A program made the position numbers and the translations under genes. From NCBI GenBank assembly GCA_017523725.1, contig JAFWVY010000067.1, positions 1 to 64,000 of the forward strand: a stretch of DNA of 64,000 nucleotides, written 5' to 3'. The stretch comes from Bacteroidales bacterium. Its GTDB lineage: Bacteria > Bacteroidota > Bacteroidia > Bacteroidales > UBA4181. Within the stretch, counting starts at the first letter, position 1. Each line of letters opens with the position of its first letter. Shown in pieces: positions 16,943-47,824 of the stretch. The notes beneath the pieces are model-generated. The model was not told the origin of the DNA, did not search any database, and worked only from the letters and a program-made list of their open reading frames with translations.

Positions 16943-18029
16943 TTAGCCGCCGTATTCCATCAGATAGGCCTTGATGAAGGCATGGATATCGCCGTCCAGC
17001 ACATCCTCCACGGCCGACGTCTCCAGCTGCGTGCGCAGGTCTTTCACCATCTTGTACGGATGCAGCACATAGTTCCGTATCTGGGATCCCCATTCGATTT
17101 TCTTCTTCTGACCTTCGATTTCGGCCTGTTTCTCACGTCTTTTCTGCAGTTCCATCTCGTACAGATGAGACTTCAGCAACCGCATGGCGTTCTCCTTGTT
17201 GGTCAGCTGAGAACGCGACTCCTGGTTCTCTATGACAATGCCCGTCGGCAGATGGCGCAACCGGACAGCCGTCTCGACTTTGTTCACGTTCTGGCCGCCC
17301 GCCCCGCTCGACCGGTAGGTCTCCCACACGATATCCGCCGGGTTTACCACGATTTCGATGCTGTCGTCCACAAGGGGCGCAACGAAGACCGACGCAAAAG
17401 AGGTGTGACGCTTGTGATTGGCATCGAAAGGCGACAGCCGCACCAGCCGGTGCACCCCTGTCTCTGACTTCAGATAGCCGTAAGCGTAGGCACCTTCTAT
17501 CTGCAGGGTGGCCGACTTGATGCCGGCATCGTCTGCCGGCTGGAGATCCATCTCATGTACCGTGAATCCGTTGCGTTCCGCATATCGAATATACATGCGC
17601 AACAGCATTTCGGCCCAATCCTGGCTTTCCGTACCGCCGGCGCCGGGGTTGATCTTGAGCACAGCGCCCAACGCATCTTCCTCGTGCCGCAGCATATTCT
17701 TGAATTCCAATTGTTCCACGGCCTGGAGCGTGGCGGCATAGTGCGCATCGATGTCCTCCTCGGAGGCTTCGCCTTCCTTGTAGAAATCGTACATCACCCC
17801 CAGGTCGTCCACCGTGGTGCTCATGGCGTTGTACGCCGTAATCCAGGCCGACAGCGCTGCGTTCTTCTTCAGCTGCTGCTCGGCCGCTTTGGGATCATCC
17901 CAGAAACCGGGCGCTTCCGTCCTGGCTTCTTCTTCTTTCAGCAGTTCTGTCTTCCGGTCGATGTCAAAGATACCTCCTCAACGCATCCCGGCGTTCCGAC
18001 ATCTCCTTTACCTGTTCCGATGTAATCAT
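16943..18029 (-). CDS. prfB: Peptide chain release factor 2, with programmed +1 frameshift
   Basis: RF2 releases the finished peptide at UGA and UAA codons. The coding region is in two frames. Codons 1-21 run from the ATG at 18029 to CTT at 17967-17969, directly followed by an in-frame TGA (17964-17966). After a +1 shift the frame continues from GAC at 17963-17965 to the stop at 16943, giving 361 residues in total. The main frame contains SPF (stop-codon recognition, RLSPFDAN) and GGQ ([10 protein letters not shown], hydrolysis of peptidyl-tRNA). Length and motif order are normal for RF2. Annotating only the 293-residue ATG-initiated frame would miss the N-terminal coiled-coil domain. Confidence 0.95.
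17963..17978 (-). promoter_or_regulatory. prfB programmed +1 frameshift signal
   Basis: On the minus strand the order is AGGAGG (17973-17978), TAT, CTT (17967-17969), TGA, C. The internal Shine-Dalgarno-like AGGAGG lies 3 bases before the CTT slippery codon, the spacing known to stimulate the +1 shift. Slow termination at the UGA when RF2 is scarce lets the ribosome slip, so RF2 controls its own synthesis. All classic elements are intact. Confidence 0.95.
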
Positions 18030-21019: not shown

Positions 21020-21027
21020 TATTTTTG
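21020..21027 (+). promoter_or_regulatory. TAnnTTTG -7 promoter element for the DUF6057 operon
   Basis: The plus strand reads TATTTTTG, an exact -7 match. Transcription would start near 21034, leaving a leader of about 20 bases before the ATG at 21053. This argues for that ATG and against the upstream in-frame GTG at 20972, which lies before the promoter. Confidence 0.6.
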
Positions 21028-21052
21028 TAAGATAAACCCTCAGCCCAAAGCC

Positions 21053-22822
21053 ATGCCTTCCGATCCAAACAGCCGATGCCGCCGCACATGCCTCCGGAAT
21101 ATGCCTGCGCCACCGGCCGGCACGGCTTTGTTTTTCTTTGCGGCATGGATATATATGGCGGTTTACTGGGGCGACCTGCTGTATCGCATGCAAGCCAGTT
21201 CCCTTTTCCTGACCGACGGCGGTTTCCTGTCGGACATGCTGCATCGGCCGGCAGGACCGCTGCGCTATGCCGGAAGTTTTCTGACAGCATGCTGTTTCCG
21301 GCCGGTTCTGGGTGCCGGTCTGTTTGCGGGCTGCCTGACACTGACCGCGCTCATTGCTGGACGTCTGTTCCGGCCGGCGCGGGCATGGAGCTGGCTGATC
21401 TTCGCACCGGCAGCGGCCGTTATTTGGCTGCAACCGGCCGTCAACTACGCCATCTACCGGTTCTTCGACACCACGTTGCTGTTCTCGCTTCCCTTGGGAC
21501 TGACCGCCATGATGCTGCTTTATGCCCTCATGGCACGTCTGCTGCGCGGTCGTCTCGCCGGACTGCTGCCGGTTGTGGCCGTCGCGGGATATTTCATGAT
21601 AGGCAGTCTGTTTTTCGGCACCATACTGCTACTGATAGTCCACAGTTTCCGGGAACGTCATCGGACAGGCCTGTGCCTGGGTTGTGCCGTCCTGACGACG
21701 CTGCTGCCCTTCGCCGCCTACCGGTTCGTCTTCAGCGATGCACTCGCTGTCTGCTACACCGCACCGATGCCGCTCCGCACCGCATATCCGCTGTTGTTCG
21801 CAGACAGTCTGCTGCCGGTCGGCCTGATTCTGCTGCTGGCCATACTGCCTTCCGGAAAACAGGATAGACGCCATGCAAACCTGTACGCCCTCGCCGGACT
21901 TGCCGTCCTTCTGACGGTCACCGGCGCTACGGCCTACCGCGATGCGAACTTCCGGACGGAACTGCGGGCATACCGGTTGCTGGAGCGTCACGATTTCGAA
22001 GGCCTCCGCAGCACGACGAAGGGGCTGACGCAACCCACCCATGCCCTGCTGGCCTGCAAGGCTATCGCGGCCGACTATACCGGAAGGCTCACCGGAGACT
22101 TCTTCGACGGGTTCGGTCTGCCCGTGCCGCCGCGCACGCACCACGCCGTCACGGAAACAGACGCCTTCAACAAAGAATTCTCACTGTACAGCGGTCTGGT
22201 CAACAACTGTTATCACTGGGCCATGGAGGACATGGCCTATGAAAGGCCCACCCTGCAGCTGCTGCAGCTGCTCTCCCAGTGCGCGCTGCTCAACCGGGAA
22301 TATCCGCTGGCCCGCAAATACGCCGGTGTGTTTCGGCGCACGCTGTTCCACCGCAGCTGGGCTCAGCGTCTCGAACGGTGGGCCGACGCACCGGAATCAT
22401 TCTTTGCTGACAAAGTGTACGGACGCATCGCAGAGGCCATGCCCCGCGAGGATATGCTGGCCAACAACAATCTGACGCCTACCGTCTATTATCTGATGTT
22501 GCAGCAGGGAACGGCCACGGAACTTTCCAGATCCCTGACCGCCGCCCTCTACCTGAACCGGCCCGATCTTTTCCTGCCTGCCGTCCAGTGGGCGGAACAC
22601 TTTACAGATCCGGTCCGCAGCAAGCACCTGCAGGAAGCCGTCGCCATCTTCGACCTGACCGACAGCACCGACCTGTCACAATCTCTCAAGGTTGATGCCC
22701 AGATAAGTGCGCGGGCAAAGGATTTTCTGAAGGCATGGCAGACGATGCCGGAACAGCAGGACGCATTGCGCCGGCAGTTCGGCGATACCTATTATTATTA
22801 CCTCTTCACCATCAACCGATGA
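21053..22822 (+). CDS. DUF6057-type membrane protein, copy A
   Basis: A 589-residue protein from the ATG at 21053; an in-frame GTG at 20972 lies upstream of the promoter. The N-terminal ~300 residues contain about nine hydrophobic membrane helices. One short conserved loop, LFLTDGGFLSDMLHRPAGPLRY, is mirrored in copy B. After the last helix comes YRDANFRTELRAYRLLE and a ~280-residue soluble, helical, repeat-like domain (TPR-like packing is possible, not proven). The layout matches Bacteroidota proteins annotated DUF6057; function is unknown. Its stop overlaps the start of the CxxCH propeller lipoprotein (ATGA), indicating coupled translation. Confidence 0.75.
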   Translation: MPSDPNSRCRRTCLRNMPAPPAGTALFFFAAWIYMAVYWGDLLYRMQASSLFLTDGGFLSDMLHRPAGPLRYAGSFLTACCFRPVLGAGLFAGCLTLTALIAGRLFRPARAWSWLIFAPAAAVIWLQPAVNYAIYRFFDTTLLFSLPLGLTAMMLLYALMARLLRGRLAGLLPVVAVAGYFMIGSLFFGTILLLIVHSFRERHRTGLCLGCAVLTTLLPFAAYRFVFSDALAVCYTAPMPLRTAYPLLFADSLLPVGLILLLAILPSGKQDRRHANLYALAGLAVLLTVTGATAYRDANFRTELRAYRLLERHDFEGLRSTTKGLTQPTHALLACKAIAADYTGRLTGDFFDGFGLPVPPRTHHAVTETDAFNKEFSLYSGLVNNCYHWAMEDMAYERPTLQLLQLLSQCALLNREYPLARKYAGVFRRTLFHRSWAQRLERWADAPESFFADKVYGRIAEAMPREDMLANNNLTPTVYYLMLQQGTATELSRSLTAALYLNRPDLFLPAVQWAEHFTDPVRSKHLQEAVAIFDLTDSTDLSQSLKVDAQISARAKDFLKAWQTMPEQQDALRRQFGDTYYYYLFTINR

Positions 22823-24300
22823 TACGCCGCCTGCTTTTCCTGATGATGACTGTCGCGGTCTGCGCCTGCGGCAAGGCCCCGGACGCCGGCATTCCATCCG
22901 GGCAGACACCGGCGATCGCACCGGACTATACCGATGTGACCATACCATACAATATAGCACCCCTGCGATTCCGTATCATGGAAGGAGGCAACCGGTTCCA
23001 GGCCGTGTTCCGGGCTGGCGGAGAAAGCATCACATGTCGCAGCCGCAGCGGTGACATCCGCATCCCGCGCCGGGCCTGGAAGAAGTTGCTTGAAGCCCAC
23101 CGGGACGAAGACCTCCTCATCGAAATCAGCGTCAAACAAAACGGACGGTGGAACGTCCGCCCGGCCATCCGTAACCACATCGCCGCCGATCCGATCGATA
23201 CCTATCTGACTTACAGGCTGCTCGAACCAGGCTATGTCAGCTATGGCAACATGGTTATCCAGGAACGGAACCTGGAAAACTTCCGGACACGCACGCTGGT
23301 CTCCAACCGGCGCGAACTGGCTGCCGGCACCGACTGCTGCATCAATTGCCACACGCCAAGGAACCACGATGGTTCCTTCACTCTGTTCCAAGTGCGCGGT
23401 CCGTTGGGAGGCGCCGTACTTTCGACACCAGACGGTGCAACCCGGCTGAATATGAAAACTGATTCCACTTTCGCTGCGACCGTTTATCCGGCGTGGCATC
23501 CGACACTTCCGCGCATCGTGTTTTCAATCAATAATATAGGACAACTTTTCCATACCGCCGACGTCCAGAAGATCGAAGTATTCGACTCCCGTTCGGATCT
23601 GGTAATCTACGACATGGATACAAAGACGCTGTCGCCCGTCTGCCGCACGGACGATGCCCTGGAGACATTCCCTGTATGGTCTCCTGACGGGAAGTTCCTG
23701 TATTACTGTTCGGCCGCCATGCCTGCCGCCGACTCGACCGGCGAAGTATCCGTCATCCGGGACTACCGGCACATCCACTACGACCTGATACGCAGACCCT
23801 ACGATGCAGCGACCGGCACCTTCGGCACCGTAGAGATCATGGTCAGAGCCTCCTCGTCGGAACTCAGTGTCACGTTCCCGAGAATCTCTCCCGACGGCCG
23901 CTTTCTGCTGTTCTGTCTGTCCGAATACGGCACATTTTCCATCTGGCACCGGAATACGGATCTCTATCTCATTGATTTCGAAACGCAGGCACTGCGTCCT
24001 CTGGAAAAAGCCAACAGCCGGGAAACGGAGAGTTATCACACTTGGTCGTCGAACGGACGCTGGATCGTATTCAGCAGCCGGCGTGACGACGGCAACTATA
24101 CCCGTCCGTACATCGTCTACATGGACAAAGACGGACACGACCACAAACCTTTCGTGCTTCCGCAACGCCGGCCGGATTTTTACGACCGGCTGCTCAAGTC
24201 TTTCAATATTCCGGAATTCATGATTACGCCGGCCAGCCGCACATGGCGGCAATACGATGACATCATCCGCACGCCGGCCACCCAGATAACTTATCAATAA
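22819..24300 (+). CDS. TolB/PD40-like beta-propeller lipoprotein with CxxCH haem motif, copy A
   Basis: A 493-residue lipoprotein (signal MIRRLLFLMM ... VCACGK). After ~170 residues of beta-rich N-terminal domain comes a single CINCH motif (bases 23338-23352, Cys174-Cys177-His178), the covalent haem c attachment signature. The rest is a beta-propeller with PD40-type blades, seen as FPVWSPDGKFLYYCS, FPRISPDGRFLLFCL and YHTWSSNGRWIVFSS. It is probably a periplasmic or surface redox or sensor protein; the role is unknown. It is translationally coupled to the DUF6057 gene upstream and has a paralogue in copy B, where CINCH is also conserved. Confidence 0.8.
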   Translation: MIRRLLFLMMTVAVCACGKAPDAGIPSGQTPAIAPDYTDVTIPYNIAPLRFRIMEGGNRFQAVFRAGGESITCRSRSGDIRIPRRAWKKLLEAHRDEDLLIEISVKQNGRWNVRPAIRNHIAADPIDTYLTYRLLEPGYVSYGNMVIQERNLENFRTRTLVSNRRELAAGTDCCINCHTPRNHDGSFTLFQVRGPLGGAVLSTPDGATRLNMKTDSTFAATVYPAWHPTLPRIVFSINNIGQLFHTADVQKIEVFDSRSDLVIYDMDTKTLSPVCRTDDALETFPVWSPDGKFLYYCSAAMPAADSTGEVSVIRDYRHIHYDLIRRPYDAATGTFGTVEIMVRASSSELSVTFPRISPDGRFLLFCLSEYGTFSIWHRNTDLYLIDFETQALRPLEKANSRETESYHTWSSNGRWIVFSSRRDDGNYTRPYIVYMDKDGHDHKPFVLPQRRPDFYDRLLKSFNIPEFMITPASRTWRQYDDIIRTPATQITYQ

Positions 24301-24307
24301 AGACATC

Positions 24308-26128
24308 ATGCGAACATCATCTCCAACGTCAGAATCTGCTCCGATCCGCCATCTGCTGCCGGTATGCCGCACGGTCATGGCCACCGGCATCCTGCTTTTC
24401 TGGGCTTGGTACAATGCCGATGTCATTTTCAAGACCCAGTCCCATACACTGTTTCTGCTGGACGGAGATTTCTTCCGCGACATGCTCGCGCAACCGGCCG
24501 GACTGCTGCGGTACGTCAGCCGCTTTTTTACGCACTGCGGCTACTTTCCGCTACTGGGAGGCCTTCTGCTGGCGCTGTTATGGCTGGGAGTCGAAACGCT
24601 GCAGGCACGGGCCCTGCACCTGCCCGACTGGCTGAGACCGGTTTCCTGCCTGATCCCTGCGGTCCTGACAGCCGCCCAGACCTATGCCGGATACTATATT
24701 TATACATCTTATGACGGTTCTCTGCTGTTCGGTCTGCCGCTGGGTCTGGCGGTCATGTACACGCAGATTATTCTGCTCCGCAAACTGACAATTCAACGGG
24801 GCGGGCTCTGGACCGGACTGCTGCTGACCACCCTGACCTATGGTCTGGCGGGCAGTTTCGGGTGGATAGGCGGTCTGGTCGCAGCGATATACGCCTGGTG
24901 CAAACTCCCGGCCCGCCGGGCTGTCCTTTGGACGGCCGCCGCCCTGCTGGCGGCCGTGGTGCTGCCCCTCGCCGCATATCGGTTCGTATGGTACGCACCG
25001 TTGCACGTATGCCGCTATGCGCCGCTGCCGGACAGCAGCACACCTGAAGCCGTCGCGGCCCTGGCTGTCGCCGCGGTCTGCACCGCCCTGCTGGCCGCCG
25101 CCGTCCGGATCAAACCACAGAAGGACCTGTACCGCCTGGCACTGCCCGCCCTTGTGCTGGGCATGGCGCTGTGCTTTCTCTTTTCCTTCCGCGATACAAA
25201 CTTCCGGGCCGAATTACGCATGCAGCGTTTGTTGGCAGAGGGAGCCTTCGACGAAATTATCCGGCGGGCCGACCGGCTGCCGCAACCTTCGCGCGCCGTC
25301 ACTGCCTACCGGGCCATCGCCCTGGACTACAACGGGCAACTGGGCAACGCACTGTTCCGTATCCCCTACACCTACACCGCCATTCCCGCAAAAGGCAAAG
25401 TGCCGGCGGAAGTGGTTCACGAACGGGAATTCAGTTTGTACGCTTCCTGTATCAACAACTGTTACATGGTAACCATGACGCAAGTAGTCAACTACGGACT
25501 GCGGCCGGCTGACCTGCAATTCTATGCGCTCTGTGCACTGTTCAACGGCGAGGACAACCTGGCCGTAAAGAATCTCAGCACCCTGGGCAAAACGATATTC
25601 TACCGCAAATGGGCGGCAGAACATGCGGCCTATCTGAGTCAGTCGGAGGATTTTCTGTCCCATCCCGTTTACGGCCGCATCGCATCTGCCATGTCCGACG
25701 AGAATCAATTGACCAACGGCAATGCAAATGTCATCGAGTTCTATCTCCGGCTGAAACAAGGTGAACGGCTGCTGTTCGAACGCCATCTGATGGACTGCCT
25801 CTATCTCAAGAACCTGGATGCATTCTGGGCCCGGGCACCGCGTATTCCCGACCTGTTCGACGAGATTCCCGTCCACATCCAGGAAGCGCTCGCCCTCATC
25901 GGAATAGTGGATGGCGAGGACATCTCCGCCTATCACATTTCGCCGGCCATCTACCAGCGGGTCGAGAGTTTCATTGCACAGACCGGATCTTTCGGCAATA
26001 ATTTCGAAGCGGCCCGCACTGCGCTGGAAAGCACCTACGGCAATATGTACGGCTATTATTACTTCTTCCGCAGCCTGCTCGACACGGAATCGGAGCAACC
26101 CGAGCCAGGCGAATCCTCCGTAAACTGA
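24308..26128 (+). CDS. DUF6057-type membrane protein, copy B
   Basis: A 606-residue paralogue of the protein at 21053-22822. The same landmarks recur in the same order: LFLLDGDFFRDMLAQPAGLLRY after the first helix, about nine membrane helices to residue ~300, FRDTNFRAELRMQRLL, then EFSLYASCINNCY and YGRIASAM in the soluble half. The two copies are clearly homologous but well diverged, so the duplication is old. It begins 7 bases after copy A of the propeller gene and ends 1 base before copy B of it, making a four-gene operon A1-A2-B1-B2. Confidence 0.75.
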   Translation: MRTSSPTSESAPIRHLLPVCRTVMATGILLFWAWYNADVIFKTQSHTLFLLDGDFFRDMLAQPAGLLRYVSRFFTHCGYFPLLGGLLLALLWLGVETLQARALHLPDWLRPVSCLIPAVLTAAQTYAGYYIYTSYDGSLLFGLPLGLAVMYTQIILLRKLTIQRGGLWTGLLLTTLTYGLAGSFGWIGGLVAAIYAWCKLPARRAVLWTAAALLAAVVLPLAAYRFVWYAPLHVCRYAPLPDSSTPEAVAALAVAAVCTALLAAAVRIKPQKDLYRLALPALVLGMALCFLFSFRDTNFRAELRMQRLLAEGAFDEIIRRADRLPQPSRAVTAYRAIALDYNGQLGNALFRIPYTYTAIPAKGKVPAEVVHEREFSLYASCINNCYMVTMTQVVNYGLRPADLQFYALCALFNGEDNLAVKNLSTLGKTIFYRKWAAEHAAYLSQSEDFLSHPVYGRIASAMSDENQLTNGNANVIEFYLRLKQGERLLFERHLMDCLYLKNLDAFWARAPRIPDLFDEIPVHIQEALALIGIVDGEDISAYHISPAIYQRVESFIAQTGSFGNNFEAARTALESTYGNMYGYYYFFRSLLDTESEQPEPGESSVN

Positions 26129-26129
26129 C

Positions 26130-27647
26130 ATGACCATGAAACATCATATTCTGTCCCGCATCTGCGTCTGCTGTCTTCTGCTGCTCACCTCACTGACCGC
26201 ATGCCAACAGGAGGCCCGGCAGACCACTGCCGTCAACCGGCTGCCCGCCATCATGCCGGATTATACCGGCACCGTCCTGCCGCCGAACATCGCCCCCGTC
26301 AATTTCCGTGTCCTGGAACCGGGCAGTCACTTTTTCATCCGCATCACAGGCGCACAGGGCCAACCCATCCTGATCAGAAGCCGCAAACCGGACATCCGTA
26401 TCCCGGAAAAGCCCTGGCGTGCATTACTGGAGGCCAACCGCGGCGGCAGCATCGACATCAGCGTGTTTGTGAAAAACGGCAACCAATGGCACCGGTACGC
26501 CGTCATCTCCAATGACATTGCCGAGGAAGAAATCGACAGTTATCTGTCTTACAGATTGATAGAACCAAGTTATGTCAATTACAGCATTCTGGGCATCTAC
26601 CAGCGCTGTCTGGAGAATTACAAGGAGACTCCTATCTATACCACCACGCGGCAGGATGATCTCCGCAACCGGCACTGCATCAACTGTCACACTTTCCAGA
26701 ACCACAGCACCGACGAAATGTTCTTCCATGTACGCGGCGGACTGGGAGGTACCATATTCGTCCATGACGGCCAGATCGAAAAAGTCAACACAAAAACCGA
26801 CTCCACCCTCTCCGCCTGTGTCTATCCTTCGTATCACCCGTTTCTGCCCAAAATCGCCTTCTCGACCAACGAAACGCGACAGACCTTCCATTCCAGGGAC
26901 ATCCAGAAGGTCGAAGTGGTTGATTTCGCTTCCGACCTGGTCATGTACGACATTGAAAAGCACGAAATCCGCCCGATTCTCTGCCATACCTCCCAGTTCG
27001 AGACTTTCCCGACCTGGGCACCGGACGGCCGCTCGCTCTATTTCTGCTGTGCACAATCGGTTCTGCCGGACTCCATCTCCGATCAAGACGATTACCTGGC
27101 ATACCATTATCAGGACATCTATTACGACCTGCTCCGGATTGCCTACGACCCGGAAACCGATACGTTTGGCGCTGTCGATACGGTGCTCAACATGTCCTCC
27201 CGGAAAAGCAGCATTTCGTTCCCACGCGTATCCCCCGACGGAAAATACATCCTGCTCTGCATCTCCGATTGTGGAAATTTCTCGATCTGGCACAAGCAGA
27301 GCGACTTGTACCTGCTCAATCTGGAGGACGGACAGTTGCAGGCATTATGGAACGTGAACAGTCCGGAAACGGAAAGCTTCCATAGCTGGTCCTCGGACGG
27401 CCGGTGGTTCGTATTCAGCACGCGCCGTGAGGATGGCAATTACACCCGGCCCTATTTCTCGTATTTCGACCGTTCCGGACAGGCGCACAAGCCTTTTGCG
27501 CTTCCGCAGAAAAAACCGGCACAGACGGTCGGACGTTTCAAATCCTACAATCTGCCGGAACTTATGACCGAACCGGTCGGCATATCGCAACGCACGTTCG
27601 ACGGTGTCATCACAGGTCCGGCCATGCCGGCTGCCTATCGGCCCTGA
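26130..27647 (+). CDS. TolB/PD40-like beta-propeller lipoprotein with CxxCH haem motif, copy B
   Basis: A 505-residue lipoprotein (503 if the ATG at 26136 is used) with signal LLLLTSLTAC. It shares with copy A the mature start LPAIMPDYTGTVLP, the pairing RKPDIRIPEKPW, the single CINCH motif (bases 26676-26690, Cys183-Cys186-His187), and the propeller blades FPTWAPDGRSLYFC, FPRVSPDGKYILLC and FHSWSSDGRWFVFS. Conservation of CINCH in both diverged copies supports real haem attachment. It ends overlapping by 13 bases the convergent beta-helix lipoprotein gene. Confidence 0.8.
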   Translation: MTMKHHILSRICVCCLLLLTSLTACQQEARQTTAVNRLPAIMPDYTGTVLPPNIAPVNFRVLEPGSHFFIRITGAQGQPILIRSRKPDIRIPEKPWRALLEANRGGSIDISVFVKNGNQWHRYAVISNDIAEEEIDSYLSYRLIEPSYVNYSILGIYQRCLENYKETPIYTTTRQDDLRNRHCINCHTFQNHSTDEMFFHVRGGLGGTIFVHDGQIEKVNTKTDSTLSACVYPSYHPFLPKIAFSTNETRQTFHSRDIQKVEVVDFASDLVMYDIEKHEIRPILCHTSQFETFPTWAPDGRSLYFCCAQSVLPDSISDQDDYLAYHYQDIYYDLLRIAYDPETDTFGAVDTVLNMSSRKSSISFPRVSPDGKYILLCISDCGNFSIWHKQSDLYLLNLEDGQLQALWNVNSPETESFHSWSSDGRWFVFSTRREDGNYTRPYFSYFDRSGQAHKPFALPQKKPAQTVGRFKSYNLPELMTEPVGISQRTFDGVITGPAMPAAYRP

Positions 27648-29026
27648 TATTCGTATGCACCAATATCCGGGGCATTGTCCGCCAACCGGTTGTATCCCGC
27701 CAGATCGTATGGCAGGACGGCCGCAACAGCCGGATCTCCGGCATCCAGACAAACCGACAGGGAATCCGGGGTGAAGTTTTCCGCCGCTGCACCGGCAAAC
27801 GGGCTGACGGCAGAGACAAGGGTTGCACGGAAACGGCCGTCAGAAACCGGCAACTGTGTACGGATAAAACAGTGATCGAACAGCACATCGTCCGCAGAAA
27901 GCGGATCTTCGCCAAAGTCCAGTTCTTCCGACCACGTGCCATAAATCAAGGTATTGTAGAAAGCATACCGCGGTTCCGGAGCCGACGGTGCAGCTTGTCC
28001 CGGACGGAGCGAAACGACCGGTTTCCCGTGCCGGACCATATAACGTGAATAATTGCCGGCCAGCGTGCAGTGACGCAGCGCGCAGCTGCCACCGGTGCAG
28101 GCCAGTGTCGCGAAACCGCAATTGGCCACCAGGGTGTTGTCGGCCTCCAGTCTCGCAGATGTGTTCAAGATACCGGCATATGACATGTTCAGAACCCGGC
28201 AGGAAACCAACTTTACAGCCGCCGTCGTCCCGCCGGGCATCTCGGGGGCTGTCACTTGGAGACCATTGGTTCCATTCCGTATCTCCGTATGTTCCAATAT
28301 GTAATCATTCCCGGAGCCGGCCAGCAACAGGCTGCCCCATTGTCCGGGATAGCTCCGATAGTCTTTTTCCAGCCGATTGCCGGAGATGCGCACCGGTTCC
28401 TCGGGTGTACCCATGCTCCTGAGCGAATGCAGGACGCGCAGATCCGCGCCGCGGGGTAGATATACCGACACCCCGGGACCGATATCCAGGTCGTCCACCG
28501 TCAGCGTACCGGACAACAGATAGGGTTTCGCCCCGCACCATTCGGCCGTCACAAGCCGGCTTTCGCACACAAGGTGCACATCCTGCACAAAAGCCGTGAA
28601 CACTATATCCCGGGGTTGTCCGTTGGTGACAAAGACTGCGGTAGCATGCAGCGGCACCGGCCGGTCCTCATTCTGTCGAGCCGCCGTCAGCGATACAAAA
28701 AGGGCCAGGCTGTCACGCGCTTCCACCGTCAGCGCCAACGGTTCGTCCGAAGTCACCGCCATGCCGTCCGCCATGACAGTGTAACCCGCGTCGAGCAACG
28801 TCCCCGCGTATAACTCGGTCTCCAGCCGCCGATGATGCGGATTGAACAGCATCAGTCGGTAAGTCGCGGATGGAAGAGTCGAAAAAACAGTGTCCAAACA
28901 GACCGTATCGGACGGAAATTGCAGCTGGGAAGCAGGATCACGGTCGTAGTCGAGCGCATCCCGGCAGCCAGTCCAGAACGGCAGAAGTGCCAGCAGCACC
29001 CCGATATATGACAGATATCTCCGCAT
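27635..29026 (-). CDS. Beta-helix (choice-of-anchor Q-like) lipoprotein
   Basis: A 463-residue lipoprotein (signal ending LLPFWTGC). The N-terminal ~170 residues are an Ig-like beta region. From about residue 175 on, short repeated rungs (GTLTVDDLDIGPGVSVYL, ILEHTEIRNGTNGL, VKLVSCRVLNMSYAG, NTLVANCG) form a right-handed parallel beta-helix. The C-terminus LADNAPDIGAYEYQGR matches the closing motif of choice-of-anchor Q proteins. Surface adhesion or structural roles are plausible, but none is demonstrable. Its ATG overlaps the apbE stop by one base (TGATG), so it is translated with apbE. Confidence 0.75.
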   Translation of the reverse strand: MRRYLSYIGVLLALLPFWTGCRDALDYDRDPASQLQFPSDTVCLDTVFSTLPSATYRLMLFNPHHRRLETELYAGTLLDAGYTVMADGMAVTSDEPLALTVEARDSLALFVSLTAARQNEDRPVPLHATAVFVTNGQPRDIVFTAFVQDVHLVCESRLVTAEWCGAKPYLLSGTLTVDDLDIGPGVSVYLPRGADLRVLHSLRSMGTPEEPVRISGNRLEKDYRSYPGQWGSLLLAGSGNDYILEHTEIRNGTNGLQVTAPEMPGGTTAAVKLVSCRVLNMSYAGILNTSARLEADNTLVANCGFATLACTGGSCALRHCTLAGNYSRYMVRHGKPVVSLRPGQAAPSAPEPRYAFYNTLIYGTWSEELDFGEDPLSADDVLFDHCFIRTQLPVSDGRFRATLVSAVSPFAGAAAENFTPDSLSVCLDAGDPAVAAVLPYDLAGYNRLADNAPDIGAYEYQGR

Positions 29027-30051
29027 CAGTGCAAAACCATTTCCGTGAATCCGGATGTCATGTAGACCTTATTCCCTGAACGCCCGCCATAGATAAGCAG
29101 TGCATCCAGTTCCGGACGGGATGCCAGCAACCGCCGGGCACCCGCATAACCCGATGCCATGCAGGCTGTGGCCCAGGCATCGGCCATCATGGCATTGTCT
29201 GTCACGATGGTTACGCTCAAGAGGCTGTCCTGCGTCGGACAGCCGGTCTTCGGATTGATGGTATGTGCATAGCGGATGCCGTCCACTTCGAAGAACTGTC
29301 TGTAATTGCCGGATGTGGCCATGGATTTTCCATCAAGCTGGATGATAGTCTGAAGGCTGTCTCCGGGCATGGCGCGGTCAACCGGGCTGTCGATGCCAAT
29401 CCGCCAGATCCGTCCCGCCTCGCTGCGGCCCGAAGTCCGGACCTCACCGCCGATTTCCACCATATAGTCCTGGCAACCAGCCTCTTCGAACAGGCGTGCG
29501 ACCACATCCACGGCGAAACCTTTGGCAATGGCACTCATATCCAGCATGACGCCGGGCACCTCCTTAACGATGGTATCCGCCGAAAGATGCACCTTGTCCA
29601 TACCGACCATCTGCAGCAAGCTGTCAACAGACGCCTGCGGCACCTGGCGGTGCGGCGCACCCGCAAACCCGAATCCCCATGCATTGACCAGCGGTGTCAC
29701 CGTGATGTCGAAAAAACCATCCGATGCATCATGGACGATGCGCGCAGCACGGAAAACCTGGCGGAACATCGAATCAGTCCGGGCTGACTGACCGGAGTTG
29801 ATCATGGATATGACGGAAGAAGGACGGAACGTAGAAAGCGAAGATTCCAGCAGGTCGAGCGACGCAGCCACCCGTTCGGGCCACGACTGCGCCCCGGCAC
29901 GGTCCACCTGTGCGGCTATGCTGTACGTCGTACCAAGCGCCATGCCGGAAAAACGTACATATACAGGCCTGGGCCGACATCCGGCCAGCAGGAGCAAGCC
30001 GGCCGCCAGCAGCAGGATGGTCACCATCCGTCGATATTCAAGGGTTCTCAT
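29026..30051 (-). CDS. apbE: FAD:protein FMN transferase lipoprotein
   Basis: ApbE covalently attaches FMN to Thr/Ser of exported redox proteins such as Rnf and Nqr subunits. The 341-residue protein starts at 30051, where a lipoprotein signal begins (TILLLAAGLLLLAGC); the open frame extends to 30213 without coding support. Family landmarks are FSGMALGTTYSI, DMSAIAKGFAVD (FAD and Mg site), VEIGGEVR and YAHTINPKTGCP. It is coupled to the beta-helix lipoprotein and convergent with the CxxCH propeller operon. No obvious ApbE target motif was noted in the neighbours, and the substrate may be encoded elsewhere. Confidence 0.93.
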   Translation of the reverse strand: MRTLEYRRMVTILLLAAGLLLLAGCRPRPVYVRFSGMALGTTYSIAAQVDRAGAQSWPERVAASLDLLESSLSTFRPSSVISMINSGQSARTDSMFRQVFRAARIVHDASDGFFDITVTPLVNAWGFGFAGAPHRQVPQASVDSLLQMVGMDKVHLSADTIVKEVPGVMLDMSAIAKGFAVDVVARLFEEAGCQDYMVEIGGEVRTSGRSEAGRIWRIGIDSPVDRAMPGDSLQTIIQLDGKSMATSGNYRQFFEVDGIRYAHTINPKTGCPTQDSLLSVTIVTDNAMMADAWATACMASGYAGARRLLASRPELDALLIYGGRSGNKVYMTSGFTEMVLH

Positions 30052-30147
30052 TGCGATGCGAAAATAACATTTTCGGCGCAATCCCGCAAACCGGCAGGCG
30101 CCGGAGGCAGACAGGCAGAAGCGTTCGACAAAGCCCCGGATAACACG

Positions 30148-30179
30148 AACCCCGGAAGTCTTGTCTGACTTTCGGGGTT
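30148..30179. terminator. Strong hairpin between the GH43-like gene and apbE
   Basis: A 13-bp stem, AACCCCGGAAGTC (30148-30160) with GACTTTCGGGGTT (30167-30179), one G-T pair and a 6-base loop. No T-run follows on either strand, so it is not a textbook intrinsic terminator. It could still stop or stabilise the transcript of the GH43-like gene that ends at 30223. Confidence 0.5.
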
Positions 30180-30222
30180 CATCGGCTGCAGGCTCTCCGG
30201 GTGCCCGCGGCAATTTACGGCG

Positions 30223-31761
30223 CTACTTGGCCGACAACAATTTCTTCAGGACGCTTTCCTTGACAGTAAAGGCCGTACCATGACGGATGCCTTCGGGGAA
30301 GGACACCTGGTCCGACACATCATCCCAATGCGTCATGTCGCTCGAACGCACCGCCCCGTATTTTTTCTCGGTGTACTTGTCAAAATACACGTAGACGAAT
30401 TCACCGATCTGCAGCGGCGACGGACCTTCAGCCCAGTAGTCACCCGTAATGACCGTCAGTTCGTCAATCGAGAAGCGGTTCATGCGCGGCGAAGGCGCAA
30501 TCATGATGTTCTTGGCATCGGCATCCTCGTTCTTCATGAACATGTAATAAGATTCGCCCTTGCGGATGAAAGAGGCATCGATGACCGAATAGTACGGATC
30601 AAAGAAAACCTTGGTTTCGGAAATGCTCAGGAAATCACGGGTTGTCACGTAATAGAGAATCTGGTCGTACGGATTCTGTTCCAGCGGCAGCAACATTTCA
30701 CCGGACGTTGCGCTGGCAGAGCCGTCGTCCCAGCCGCCCCAGCCGCCCATCATGCCGCCCATCATGCCACCCATCATGCCGCCCATCATCTGACCCATCA
30801 TCTGGCCGCCCATCTGGCCGCCCATCTGACCGCCCATCTGACCGCCCATCTGACCACGGTTGAACTGCTGGTTGCCTTGCTGATTACCTTGACGGTTGCC
30901 TTGCTGGTTACCCTGTTGGTTGCCTTGCTGGTTACCTTGCTGGTTACCCTGTTGGTTGCCCTGACGGTTGCCCTGCTGGTTGCCCTGTTGGTTATTCCCC
31001 TGCATATTCCGGCCCATCGCCTGACGGTTTGCACGCGCTCCCTGCAGATTACCAGACTGTTGTGCACGATCTTGACGGACCGTTCCGCCACCTTGTGCCC
31101 GGCCTGCACCTTGCATACCACCCGGCATACCGCCCTGCATACCACCTGGCATGCCGCCCGGCATACCGCCTGGCATACCGCCGCCAGGGAAACCACCGGG
31201 AGGACCCATCATACCCATTTCATTCTGTTCTTCCTCCTCTGCGGAAGAATCGGGAGCATGCGAAATCAGTCCGCGTTGTTTCAGCGCTGCGGTACCTGTC
31301 GGACCTTCGACATAACCGGCCGGTTTTTTGACCGACGCAGCCCAGACGATATAGAACTGCTGTTCCGTAGTACTGTAGAAGACCTCGGGAGCCCAAGTAT
31401 TGTTGATGTTCGGCTCAAAGCCCATCACAGGCAGATATTCCTGCTCGGACCAGTTAATCAGGTCGGTGGAGGATGCATGGGCAATGCCGTTGCCGTTCCA
31501 TCCCGGTGTCCAGACCATGTGGTACACACCGTCCGGTCCGCGGGCGATACTCGGGTCACGCATCAGTTTTTCCTTGCCGACTTCGGGGGTCAGAAACACC
31601 TTGCCATTCTGTACCGATTCCCATTTCAGGCCGTCACGGCTGTATGCGAAGTGCAGTCCGTCGCCATTGCCTTCGAAATACGAAAACAGATAAACGTCAG
31701 ACTCCTCCCCGCAGGCACAGAGTAACAGGCACAGACAGCACCATGCTAAAATTTTTTTCAT
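30223..31761 (-). CDS. GH43-like five-bladed propeller glycosidase lipoprotein with giant low-complexity insert
   Basis: A 512-residue lipoprotein (signal LCLLLCACG). Residues 20-165 and 355-505 together read as one GH43-type propeller. They hold the candidate catalytic base in MRDPSI (Asp69), WAPEVFY, the transition-state Asp in IDASFIRKGESYYMF (Asp396), and the general acid Glu in YWAEGPSPL (Glu445). Between them, residues ~172-352 are a low-complexity insert: an acidic EEEEQNE linker, Gly-Gly-Met-Pro repeats, Asn-Gln-Gln-Gly repeats (~256-299), then Gly-Gln-Met-Gly and Met-Met-Gly-Gly repeats. In relatives this position is a short loop before the YYVTTRDF strand. Family role: arabinosidase/xylosidase-type hydrolysis; the specific substrate is unknown. 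Confidence 0.8.
   Translation of the reverse strand: MKKILAWCCLCLLLCACGEESDVYLFSYFEGNGDGLHFAYSRDGLKWESVQNGKVFLTPEVGKEKLMRDPSIARGPDGVYHMVWTPGWNGNGIAHASSTDLINWSEQEYLPVMGFEPNINNTWAPEVFYSTTEQQFYIVWAASVKKPAGYVEGPTGTAALKQRGLISHAPDSSAEEEEQNEMGMMGPPGGFPGGGMPGGMPGGMPGGMQGGMPGGMQGAGRAQGGGTVRQDRAQQSGNLQGARANRQAMGRNMQGNNQQGNQQGNRQGNQQGNQQGNQQGNQQGNQQGNRQGNQQGNQQFNRGQMGGQMGGQMGGQMGGQMMGQMMGGMMGGMMGGMMGGWGGWDDGSASATSGEMLLPLEQNPYDQILYYVTTRDFLSISETKVFFDPYYSVIDASFIRKGESYYMFMKNEDADAKNIMIAPSPRMNRFSIDELTVITGDYWAEGPSPLQIGEFVYVYFDKYTEKKYGAVRSSDMTHWDDVSDQVSFPEGIRHGTAFTVKESVLKKLLSAK
30742..31200 (-). repeat. In-frame 12-bp tandem repeats (GGMP, NQQG, GGQM, GGMM units)
   Basis: Coding tandem repeats inside the GH43-like gene. 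Four-residue units: GGMP/GGMQ around 31099-31200, NQQG/NRQG around 30864-30996, GGQM then GGMM around 30742-30858. The 12-base DNA periodicity (for example repeats of ttgctggttacc) is nearly exact within each block. Such repeats can change length by slippage without shifting frame. Because the array is so repetitive, its length in this assembly should be treated with caution. Confidence 0.9.
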
Positions 31762-44054: not shown

Positions 44055-44744
44055 TCACCATTTCTTCCGGGGCGTGGTAGCCATGAATTCCTTAAGATAG
44101 AAAGGTGTGAAATAGGCGACATCGCACCAACGGCGTTCCTGTAACGCCCGGGCCGACAGTGTAGCCATCGCGGCCGCCGAGGCACGGATGCCGTCATAGA
44201 ACCGGGCGGTGTCCGGCGTGAGAATGCCTGCACACTTCATCGCACCGGGACCGAAAAAAGCAACGGGTCCTGCCGCCAGTGCCTCGCTGAAAGAATCCGC
44301 CGTCACGATTTCGGCATGCACCTCCGAACAAGGCGTACCTTCCCTGTCATACAGCGCAGTGTACACTTCCATCCGGCGCGCATCGATCATCGGTGCCAGC
44401 CGCCAGTCCGGGCCGACATCGCCGGCATGCGCGGCCAGAAACGCCTGCACCAGCACCTCGGCCGTTGATACGGCAAGCAGCGGGACTCCGGCGCCATAGC
44501 ATAATCCTTTGGCCGTCGACACACCGATGCGCAGACCGGTATAAGAACCCGGTCCCATGCTGACCGATACCGCATCCAGATCCGATACCGCCAGGCCGGC
44601 CTCCGACAGCAGTTCGCCGGCGCAGACCGTCAGCATGGTGGCATGGCTGTGTCCTTCCGCGCTTTCTTTCAGCGCCTTCACTTCGTTCCCTTCCGAAAGG
44701 GACACCGAACAGACATCCGCTGTGGTTTCAATGTTGAGTATCAT
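44055..44744 (-). CDS. tsaB: tRNA t6A modification protein TsaB
   Basis: TsaB is the scaffold partner of TsaD in making threonylcarbamoyl-adenosine at position 37 of ANN-decoding tRNAs. The 229-residue ASKHA-fold protein starts ILNIETTADVCSVSL, with VSMGPGSYTGLRIGVSTAKGL and MIDARRMEVYTALY. Length is normal. Its start overlaps the stop of the DUF2723 gene (ATGA), so the two are translated together. Confidence 0.95.
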   Translation of the reverse strand: MILNIETTADVCSVSLSEGNEVKALKESAEGHSHATMLTVCAGELLSEAGLAVSDLDAVSVSMGPGSYTGLRIGVSTAKGLCYGAGVPLLAVSTAEVLVQAFLAAHAGDVGPDWRLAPMIDARRMEVYTALYDREGTPCSEVHAEIVTADSFSEALAAGPVAFFGPGAMKCAGILTPDTARFYDGIRASAAAMATLSARALQERRWCDVAYFTPFYLKEFMATTPRKKW

Positions 44745-47700
44745 CGGCCGTTAGTTTTCGGGCGGCTGCCATACCAGTCGGCAATCATTCTTTCGAGCGT
44801 CGGACCATACTTGCCGGACAATTCCGTCCGGTTGAATTCCTCTGCCTGCTCGACCATCGAATTGAGCTGGATGATGCGGGCCCGTTTTTCTTCCGACAGC
44901 AGCGACGAAAAACGTTTGGGGAAACTTTGCAGGTAATTGTACTCCTCCACGGCCCGGTTGGCCAGTATTTCCATCCAATGGTCGCCCGACGTGACATCGC
45001 CGGCCTCATAGTAACGCGAGACGATATTGCGCGAATAGATATCCAGCGGCACCGTCGCGTCCGGAATGACCTCCATGCAGCGGTCCAGCACCTCCAGTGC
45101 TTTTTCGTACTTTCCCTCACGCGAAAGCATCTCGGCCAGGTTCATGAACAAATGGCGGCAGGTGATGCCCAGCGTTCGCGTACACGTTTCATCCAGATAG
45201 ACTTTCGGATTATCGACATTTTCCCAGCGGAAGACATGCATCAGCCGGTCGTACATCAGGTCGGTGTCCATCATGCCGATCCAGTCCTTCTTGACCGTAT
45301 CCTGCACGGGCACGAAACGGTATGCGAAACCGTCCAGCCGCATGTAGGCATCGAGGTTCAGCCGATGGGAGGCCGGAACCGAATACGCGAAATATACCGG
45401 GCGTGTCCAGTTGTTGGTTGCCAGCATGTCAAGCGTCATCATGGCACTCTTCAGCAGGATGTTGTCGCCGTATTCCAGGTTGCCTGCAAGACGCCATTTC
45501 ACCTCCGGTACAATGTCGGCCGTATCCTTGGGCGGGACGGTGCCGTTCGCAGCCACCTTGCTCCGGTTCACCGGCAGCGAAAGGAACCGCGCCGGCAGAT
45601 AATCCAGCGTCTCGGCATACTGCGGAAGCGTCTTGGTACGCTTGTCATCGCTCGCCAGGAAATCGACAGCCTCCCTGACGCTGACATATTCTCCATCGAA
45701 CAGGTCGAAGATATACGCCATCGTCCGGTTCTCATACAGGTATTTCTCGCGTGCGATGGAAATCGGCAACGGATCGGACTCATAGGCTTTCCGGCGCATC
45801 TGGTCGATGTACCAGTCCGCCGAAAGGAAACTCAGGTTGGCCACCCGCACGTCAGTGCGCACCCCTTCGGTCTCCTGCGCATACCAGAGCGGATAGGTGT
45901 CGTTGTCGCCATACGTAAAGATGATGGCATTTTCATCGCACGACATCAGGTAGTTGTAGCCAAGATCGCGGGCGACATAACGTCCCGAGCGGTCATGGTC
46001 GTCCCAGTTCTGCGCCGCCATACGGACTGGGACGCAGAGCAGCAGTACCAGCACCGTCGCGGCCGTCCAACCGACGGTCTGCATCCGCCGGGGCAGGGAC
46101 TCCGCCAACGCCTGTACTCCCAGTCCTATCCAGATGGCAAAGGCATAGAACGAACCGGCATACGCATAGTCACGTTCCCGCGGCTCATTGGGAGACTGGT
46201 TCAGATACAACACTATCGCGATGCCTGTCATAAAGAACAGCGCGAAAACCACCCAGAAATCATGATTCGACTTACGATATTGGAAAAACAGACCCAGCAG
46301 ACCCAGCAGAAGCGGCAGCATGAAATACGTATTGCGGCCTTTGTTGCGCATACTGTCAGGTATATCCTGCGGTCCCAGCCTGATCTCGTCCAGCACCGGA
46401 ATACCCGTAATCCAGTTGCCTTTAAGCACATTCCCGTCACCTGGCGTATCGTTCTGACGGCCGGAGAAATTCCACATAAAATAGCGGAAATACATGAAGT
46501 TCAACTGATAACGCAGCAGGAACCTCAAATCTTCGACCATAGTGGGCCGTTTAACCGTACCGACTGTACCGTCCGACTGTGTCACCCGGACAGACCGCCC
46601 GGAAAGCGGCCCCACCCACTCTTCGTAAAAAGCGGAATGACGTTCGCTGTGCATGCGCGGGAACCATGCGATGAACCGTTTGTCGTAGTTATACGACTGT
46701 TTCCGGCCGATCTCCTCATACGAATTCTCCCCCTTGGCGTAGATCTTCCGGCCATCTTTCATGGACAAGACCGGCGCATTGTAATACGCCCCGCGCAGCA
46801 GCGGCCGGTCGCCGTACTGCTCGCGGTTGAGATACGACTGCAGATTCATGATATTCTGCGGATCGTTGAGATCCATCGGCAATTCAGCGGCGGAACGGAT
46901 GACAATCACCGCATACGAGGAATATCCGATCAGGATGACCGTGACACAGAGCAGGATGGTATTCCACAGCACCTTGCCGTGCTTCAGTGTGTAATGGAGA
47001 CCCCAGACCAGCCCGCCGACAAGCAGGATGGCATAGGCCAGCACCCCCGAAGAGAACGGCAGATGCAGCGTATTCACGAAAAAGAGGTCGGCACTGATGG
47101 CCAGCTGCACCACCCCGGGAATGATGCCGTACAGGATGCCGGCCAGAATCAGCGCGGAGACACACAACGTCTTGAGCACGCCGCTCCGCGTCACCCGGCA
47201 GGTCTTGAAATAGTACACAAAGACGATGGCCGGTATGGCCAGCAGGTTCAGCAGATGCACGCCGATGGAAAGGCCCATCAGATAGGCTATCAGGATCAGC
47301 CAGCGGTTGGCCAGCCGTTCCCCGGCTTCGTCCTCCCATTTCAGGATAGCCCAGAAAACCAAGGCCGTAAAGAGCGACGAACAGGCATAGACCTCGCCTT
47401 CCACCGCCGAGAACCAGAAGGTGTCAGAGAAGGTATAGGCCAGGGCGCCCACGACGCCGGAACCCACAATACGGAGAAACTGTGCCGGTTCACAGACCTC
47501 CGGCACATCGGCGATTTTCCGTGCCAGGTGTGTGATGCTCAGGTACAGCAGCCAGATGGTCGCCGCACTGCACAGCGCAGAAAAGATATTGATGCAGACC
47601 GGTACTTTGGATACGTCCCCACCGGCAAAAAAAGTGAACATACGGCCCAGCAACATGAAGAAAGGCGCTCCCGGCGGGTGTCCCACCTCAAGCCGGAAGG

Positions 47701-47824
47701 CCGTGGAGATGAACTCGCCGCAGTCCCAGAAACTCACCGACGGCTCAATAGTCATGACATACACGACGGCCGAGACGAGGAACACCATGTATCCAACCAG
47801 CCGGTTCCAGAATTTAAACTGCAT
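44741..47824 (-). CDS. DUF2723 polytopic membrane protein (GT-C-like)
   Basis: A 1,027-residue protein: the first ~240 residues are the DUF2723 domain (SFWDCGEFISTAFRLEVGHPPGAPFF), with more helices to about residue 600. An extended periplasmic soluble part follows, ending in a TPR-like pair (MLSREGKYEKALEVLDRCMEVIPD). DUF2723 proteins resemble GT-C protein O-mannosyltransferases, and the conserved DCGEF near the N-terminus fits the acidic catalytic loop of that class. A role in protein O-glycosylation is a family-based inference. It is 23 bases downstream of the ManD-like gene and coupled to tsaB. Confidence 0.88.
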   Translation of the reverse strand: MQFKFWNRLVGYMVFLVSAVVYVMTIEPSVSFWDCGEFISTAFRLEVGHPPGAPFFMLLGRMFTFFAGGDVSKVPVCINIFSALCSAATIWLLYLSITHLARKIADVPEVCEPAQFLRIVGSGVVGALAYTFSDTFWFSAVEGEVYACSSLFTALVFWAILKWEDEAGERLANRWLILIAYLMGLSIGVHLLNLLAIPAIVFVYYFKTCRVTRSGVLKTLCVSALILAGILYGIIPGVVQLAISADLFFVNTLHLPFSSGVLAYAILLVGGLVWGLHYTLKHGKVLWNTILLCVTVILIGYSSYAVIVIRSAAELPMDLNDPQNIMNLQSYLNREQYGDRPLLRGAYYNAPVLSMKDGRKIYAKGENSYEEIGRKQSYNYDKRFIAWFPRMHSERHSAFYEEWVGPLSGRSVRVTQSDGTVGTVKRPTMVEDLRFLLRYQLNFMYFRYFMWNFSGRQNDTPGDGNVLKGNWITGIPVLDEIRLGPQDIPDSMRNKGRNTYFMLPLLLGLLGLFFQYRKSNHDFWVVFALFFMTGIAIVLYLNQSPNEPRERDYAYAGSFYAFAIWIGLGVQALAESLPRRMQTVGWTAATVLVLLLCVPVRMAAQNWDDHDRSGRYVARDLGYNYLMSCDENAIIFTYGDNDTYPLWYAQETEGVRTDVRVANLSFLSADWYIDQMRRKAYESDPLPISIAREKYLYENRTMAYIFDLFDGEYVSVREAVDFLASDDKRTKTLPQYAETLDYLPARFLSLPVNRSKVAANGTVPPKDTADIVPEVKWRLAGNLEYGDNILLKSAMMTLDMLATNNWTRPVYFAYSVPASHRLNLDAYMRLDGFAYRFVPVQDTVKKDWIGMMDTDLMYDRLMHVFRWENVDNPKVYLDETCTRTLGITCRHLFMNLAEMLSREGKYEKALEVLDRCMEVIPDATVPLDIYSRNIVSRYYEAGDVTSGDHWMEILANRAVEEYNYLQSFPKRFSSLLSEEKRARIIQLNSMVEQAEEFNRTELSGKYGPTLERMIADWYGSRPKTNGR

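Follow-up and report, generated by a model that had tools for sequence, protein, structure and literature searches.

A tandemly duplicated gene pair for a DUF6057 membrane protein and a TolB-like propeller lipoprotein in a Bacteroidales genome

Two consecutive copies of a gene pair, each encoding a DUF6057 membrane protein and a TolB-like propeller lipoprotein, are present in a 64,000-nucleotide stretch of a Bacteroidales genome that we analysed as a whole (referred to below as the window). There is strong evidence that the two proteins make up a functional unit. Structural modelling assigns a GT-C fold to the membrane part of DUF6057, and we regard it as evenly poised whether the pair forms a two-subunit periplasmic envelope module, in which a GT-C-like enzyme would have a dedicated cofactor-bearing partner. 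The function of the pair has no published description. Our literature searches found no paper on DUF6057, nothing relevant on haem propellers, and no paper on a cofactor-bearing partner of a periplasmic glycosyltransferase. With these results DUF6057, so far without an assigned function, acquires a testable identity, and so does a CxxCH propeller of a type that had not been characterised. If both the haem and the GT-C activity were to prove true, a cofactor-bearing partner would be linked to a periplasmic glycosyltransferase.

The four genes occupy positions 21053–27647 of the window, all on the plus strand, in the order DUF6057–propeller–DUF6057–propeller (A1-A2-B1-B2, Table 1). The stop codon of A1 and the start codon of A2 share an ATGA at 22819–22822, which is a 4-base overlap, and the gaps are 7 bases between A2 and B1 and a single base between B1 and B2. 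This layout agrees exactly with the preliminary description of the locus. A1 and B1 score 218.9 and 241.8 bits with PF19529 (gathering cut-off 29.8) and hence both belong to DUF6057, whereas A2 and B2 match PD40 and contain exactly one CINCH each. Sequence identity is 31% over 589 columns between A1 and B1 and 44% over 481 columns between A2 and B2, and the duplication must therefore be old, with the membrane half drifting faster.

Table 1. Positions of the tandem genes and of their notable parts in the window
Feature	Position	Strand	Basis or remark
-7-like box TATTTTTG (Bacteroidota TAnnTTTG)	21020..21027	+	26 bases upstream of A1 ATG
A1, DUF6057 protein	21053-22822	+	PF19529, E 2e-64
A1, GT-C-like membrane part	~21071-21928	+	inferred from B1 model and alignment
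A1, TPR-like domain	~21944-22813	+	inferred from B1 model and alignment
A1, first periplasmic loop (EL1)	21185..21301	+	GT-C acid position is Gln-Ala
A2, TolB-like propeller lipoprotein	22819-24300	+	PD40, E 4e-19
A2, CINCH, residues 174-178	23338-23352	+	candidate c-haem site
B1, DUF6057 protein	24308-26128	+	PF19529, E 2.3e-71
B1, GT-C-like membrane part	24308-25180	+	AlphaFold (pLDDT 85.7), VIA-align, hhalign
B1, TPR-like domain	25196-26071	+	AlphaFold (pLDDT 85.7), VIA-align
B1, EL1	24431..24547	+	GT-C acid position is Gln-Ser
B2, TolB-like propeller lipoprotein	26130-27647	+	AlphaFold (pLDDT 92.7), TolB Z 25.8, PD40 E 6e-16
B2, CINCH, residues 183-187	26676-26690	+	candidate c-haem site

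Of the promoter that had been proposed before A1, one -7-like box remains. The window contains 20 boxes of the TATTTTTG kind where 15.5 would be expected, which is near chance and makes the box weak support for a promoter. A search for TTTG-18/22-TANNTTTG near A1 returned no match, and the box has no -33 partner.

The tandem is flanked by divergent ribosomal-protein genes on one side and by a convergent lipoprotein gene on the other. Two genes downstream, on the opposite strand, lies a gene for a lipoprotein (29026–30213, minus strand) that was judged by eye, from its sequence, to be ApbE-like (flavin transferase). Also on the minus strand, a 512-residue lipoprotein (30223–31761) contains a long low-complexity insert in which QGN and MGGQ/MMGG are repeated. 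Elsewhere in the window, the minus-strand prfB gene (RF2) has the classical programmed +1 frameshift site AGGAGGTAT-CTT-TGA-C at 17963–17978, upstream of a 293-residue open reading frame (16943–17824), which places the full start of this gene near 18029.

A survey of 295 genomes of the same order upheld the earlier view that the pair works as a unit and that its duplication is ancient; the rarity of co-occurrence that would have spoken against this view is clearly not what we see. DUF6057 was found in 36 of these genomes and the propeller profile in 38. They occur together in 34, so that only two of the DUF6057 genomes lack the propeller (Fisher p = 1e-37). At 62 of the 71 DUF6057 places a propeller gene stands directly beside the DUF6057 gene on the same strand, and in 53 of these 62 it is downstream. 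The remaining places comprise some unlinked genes and one divergent pair; three genomes (G402, G350 and G325) contain unlinked DUF6057 and propeller genes in equal numbers. The pair on contig C2 of genome G498 had gone unscored by the search but was found on reading the locus, which is thus no exception to adjacency. Spacing is tight: in 42 of 50 DUF6057–propeller neighbours the genes overlap or lie within 20 bases of each other, and 11 of the 50 have a 4-base overlap.

The two families also co-evolve. Trees of 44 propellers and of their 44 partner DUF6057 proteins contain the same groups, and the distance matrices of these 44 pairs correlate with a Mantel r of 0.714, whereas random pairings give at most 0.234. 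When partners were swapped only among paralogues within one genome, the mean r was 0.435 and the observed value was reached in none of 2000 trials. Since these within-genome shuffles never match the observed r, the pairing signal is separate from that of the species tree.

Outside the order, the same pair was present in two full-length phylum-level matches. A scan of genome contigs with a single protein returned one locus only, on a contig of an acidobacterial MAG, where the pair has the same order and lies beside a TonB-dependent-receptor-like gene. Among 250 genomes of Terriglobia, the class of this MAG, the MAG genome alone has a full-length propeller, the others having generic PD40 proteins, which suggests that the acidobacterial pair is a transferred unit. 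The first tandem copies of two further loci (L039 and L041) group together in the tree and the second copies group likewise, separately, and this tandem must therefore be old too. In a genome of the same family (G563), a short contig with DUF6057–propeller–DUF6057 pieces falls on another branch. Tandem arrays thus occur in several lineages and arose several times. The short contig of G563 (C151, L191; 3147 bases) consists of one propeller gene between the two parts of one DUF6057 gene, which the contig ends cut in two, and it may represent either a tandem array that has collapsed or a small circle.

The preliminary description found no obvious counterpart for the pair. This no longer applies to the folds, as the membrane half of the pair is predicted to be a GT-C fold followed by a TPR-like periplasmic domain, and the propeller is TolB-like. 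The AlphaFold model of B1 was built with 44 homologues, and it contains two juxtamembrane helices of EL1 (residues 37–45 and 53–60) between TM1 and TM2. According to the positive-inside rule, DUF6057 has nine helices; its N-terminus is cytoplasmic, and both EL1 and the C-terminal domain are on the outer side. Among the best 50 rows of a VIA-align comparison, the membrane proteins aligning to residues 1–305 are GT-C enzymes: Pmt1 (Z 9.5, 258 residues, 5.9 Å), Pmt4 (9.1), STT3 (8.8) and PglB (7.9). At least six GT-C structures, from Pmt1-Pmt2, Pmt4, STT3, PglB and AglB, align with Z of 7.3–9.5 over 244–268 residues at 5.3–6.0 Å; Z scores of about 7–10 are modest for a helical protein and insufficient on their own for a GT-C call. 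Foldseek found nothing below 1e-3 with the DUF6057 model, and in a Pfam search the family stayed below every GT-C threshold. An hhalign comparison with a profile built from the PMT_2 proteins of related genomes gave a probability of 73.7 and an E-value of 2.9e-5 (for a single pairwise comparison with no database background) over 172 columns from the N-terminus, whereas reversed and unrelated controls gave at most 3.4. In this alignment, the EL1 ‘EQ’ of DUF6057 falls on the PMT_2 ‘DE’ and its ‘PGG’ on ‘PP’. The same test missed a true GT-C family, TMEM260 (probability 0.8). The C-terminal half of DUF6057 is TPR-like, with structural matches to TPR proteins, and the best conserved residues of the family are located in EL1 and in the TPR part. 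The window also encodes a TMEM260-like (PF11028) GT-C protein of 1027 residues (44741–47824, minus strand); the same genome has another at a different place, and a search of 31 genomes found one or more in each.

In the AlphaFold model of B2, the N-terminal domain and the propeller are both TolB-like. The model superimposes on TolB with a Z of 25.8 (3.1 Å, 276 residues); TolB structures score 24–26 and the next class about 19. The propeller was rejected as TolB itself, because the A2/B2 pair scores 47.8 and 40.9 bits, far under the NCBIfam equivalog cut-off of 343.15 bits. Matches of the propeller to NirS and to a quinohaemoprotein dehydrogenase were judged to be generic propeller similarity. 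The lipid-bearing Cys25 is invariant and follows a signal helix. In Bacteroidota, the export signal of a lipoprotein is an acidic stretch that follows its lipid cysteine (PMC5080379). Two consecutive acids at this place are found in one of 47 propellers, compared to 8 of 14 SusD controls from the same loci. Because the surface-export signal is absent, the propeller probably faces the periplasm, where the TPR domain is also placed, and the ‘surface’ location given earlier finds no support.

We moderately favour a covalent haem on the CxNCH motif, in line with the single haem that the preliminary description had assigned to the propeller. Exactly one C[IMVL]NCH is present in all 58 propeller relatives outside the source genome (that of the window). 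A gene for a CcsA-family cytochrome c synthase is located on contig C8 of the source genome, and CcsA is found in all 34 pair-bearing genomes versus 238 of the 295 overall (p = 4e-4, uncorrected for kinship), as well as in three of three further pair-bearing genomes. In organisms with a CcsBA synthase, an exported protein with CxxCH normally receives haem. Against haem on the propeller counts another probable client of the CcsBA of the source genome, a neighbouring di-CxxCH protein. This protein, encoded directly before the CcsBA-like genes (L079, 3131–4867, plus strand), is likely a c-type cytochrome. Furthermore, the apo model of B2 puts CINCH in strand 182–190, in which Cys183 and Cys186 would face opposite sides; the usual setting of CxxCH is a helical turn. 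A search for solved structures that resemble the CxNCH segment by sequence found none. It is conceivable, if somewhat unlikely, that CxNCH, on this inner propeller strand, together with His200, His236, His388 and His418 forms a metal site or a disulphide and carries no haem. Such a site would suit the strand conformation and the several near-invariant histidines at or near equivalent blade positions, some of which are lost along with the cysteines in a third propeller of the source genome, but it is at odds with the usual haemylation of exported CxxCH proteins and with the synthase in every pair-bearing genome tested. This alternative concerns the cofactor only and fits both views of what the membrane protein does.

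One copy has lost the motif altogether. The source genome contains a third DUF6057–propeller pair, unlinked to the tandem, on contig C7 and with the same gene order. In its propeller (L004, 6156–7667, minus strand), AVGGH replaces CxNCH, and it is the only Cys-less member seen. This protein differs at 17 of 75 otherwise conserved columns, including Cys183, Asn185, Cys186, His200 and His418; it also lacks Trp387 and His388, which belong to slightly less conserved columns, and keeps His187 and His236. The excess of losses among Cys and His columns has a post hoc p of about 0.01–0.02. From this comparison, the joint loss of both cysteines and of H200, H388 and H418 resembles what a single decaying site would leave.

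The neighbourhood of the pair is variable. In 18 of 59 loci, SusC or SusD is encoded no more than three genes away, and two thirds of the loci, that of the window included, have neither nearby. In one locus, the genes immediately before the pair code for an ECF sigma factor, for FecR, for a CarbopepD_reg protein whose STN match stays below threshold, and for a GldM-C-like protein. FkbO/Hyg5-like genes (chorismatase-type fold with a RidA domain) stand beside the pair in five distant genomes (L039, L043, L055, L057 and L077); of two checked with Pfam, one is above the FkbO cut-off and one just below. Derivation of a substrate from the FkbO/Hyg5-like or from the GH/SusCD neighbours was rejected, as the neighbours are too variable. 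The module seems to be self-contained and often recruited to uptake loci. PADLOC returned no match and hence no sign of a defence system.

GT-C enzymes carry their catalytic acids at the start of EL1 (D55/E56 in 5ezm and D77/E78 in 6p25; PMC7801869). The first acid of this ‘DE’ pair is unconserved in DUF6057, and 33 of 44 proteins have at least one acid at positions 44 and 45. Since the catalytic acids are the weak point, we claim the GT-C fold for DUF6057 and not the activity. In the three copies of the source genome the position reads QA, QS and QQ, and an Asp eight residues further on is kept; with the acid absent from all three, an enzyme role in this genome is doubtful. The main rival reading takes up this loss, which extends to 11 of the 44 proteins: a dead GT-C-like fold would bind a lipid-linked glycan or act as a scaffold, while the propeller would sense redox state or a ligand and signal to uptake or regulatory systems. 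The SusC/SusD genes near 18 loci and the sigma factor–FecR locus fit such a non-enzymatic sensor. However, three quarters of the 44 proteins retain an acid, the regulatory gene set was seen in a single locus, and neither protein has a signalling domain. We hold the sensor to be rather unlikely, and more plausible in the source genome than family-wide. An electron-transfer device, in which the membrane protein would couple the haem propeller to the quinone pool, could account for the CxNCH motif and the multi-helix partner. It is very improbable, as DUF6057 resembles no Pfam quinone enzyme, its fold matches are GT-C, and its conservation peaks in EL1 and the TPR part.

In the envelope-module explanation that we prefer, DUF6057 would be an inner-membrane GT-C-fold protein of nine helices that exposes EL1 and its TPR-like domain to the periplasm. 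Its partner would be a TolB-like lipoprotein that faces the periplasm and has one cofactor site, centred on CxNCH and most likely occupied by a c-type haem. The two would bind each other, probably via the TPR domain. The ancestral activity was probably the transfer of a group, presumably a glycosyl, from a polyprenyl-linked donor to a periplasmic acceptor, and the propeller may present the acceptor or gate the enzyme by its redox state. The module would often serve SusC/SusD uptake loci. In a narrower form, the pair would be a redox- or haem-gated transferase of an unrecognised GT-C branch that has a TPR domain in the periplasm, depends on a haem-propeller lipoprotein as its obligate and co-evolving partner, and modifies periplasmic or uptake-related glycoconjugates in many Bacteroidota; in this full form we consider the proposal rather unlikely.

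As in the GT-C enzymes (PMT_2/ArnT, Pmt1/Pmt4, STT3/PglB), the first membrane helices of DUF6057 follow the same order and topology, EL1 has short periplasmic helices between TM1 and TM2, and the positions of the acid and of PGG/PP are in register. It differs from them in that the first EL1 acid is unconserved, the second is lost in the source genome, the helices number nine, and the sequences fall under the Pfam thresholds. The eukaryotic O-mannosyltransferases TMTC1-4 have a GT-C part of 11 helices with a strict DD motif and, after it, a non-cytosolic TPR domain (PMC7801869). This succession of a GT-C membrane part and a non-cytosolic TPR domain is also that of DUF6057, which has nine helices, no strict DD motif, and no sequence match to TMTC1-4 that we could see. 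To our knowledge, TMTC1-4 have no propeller partner. The propeller resembles TolB of the Tol-Pal system in its N-terminal domain and six-bladed PD40 propeller, but it is a lipoprotein with CxNCH, and its gene partner is DUF6057, not Pal or TolA. Finally, although it has six blades, lacks a separate cytochrome c domain and shows generic similarity only (1e2r, the cytochrome cd1 comparison, is among its Foldseek matches), the propeller lipoprotein resembles cytochrome cd1 nitrite reductase and other haem propellers in combining a propeller and a c-type haem motif in one chain.
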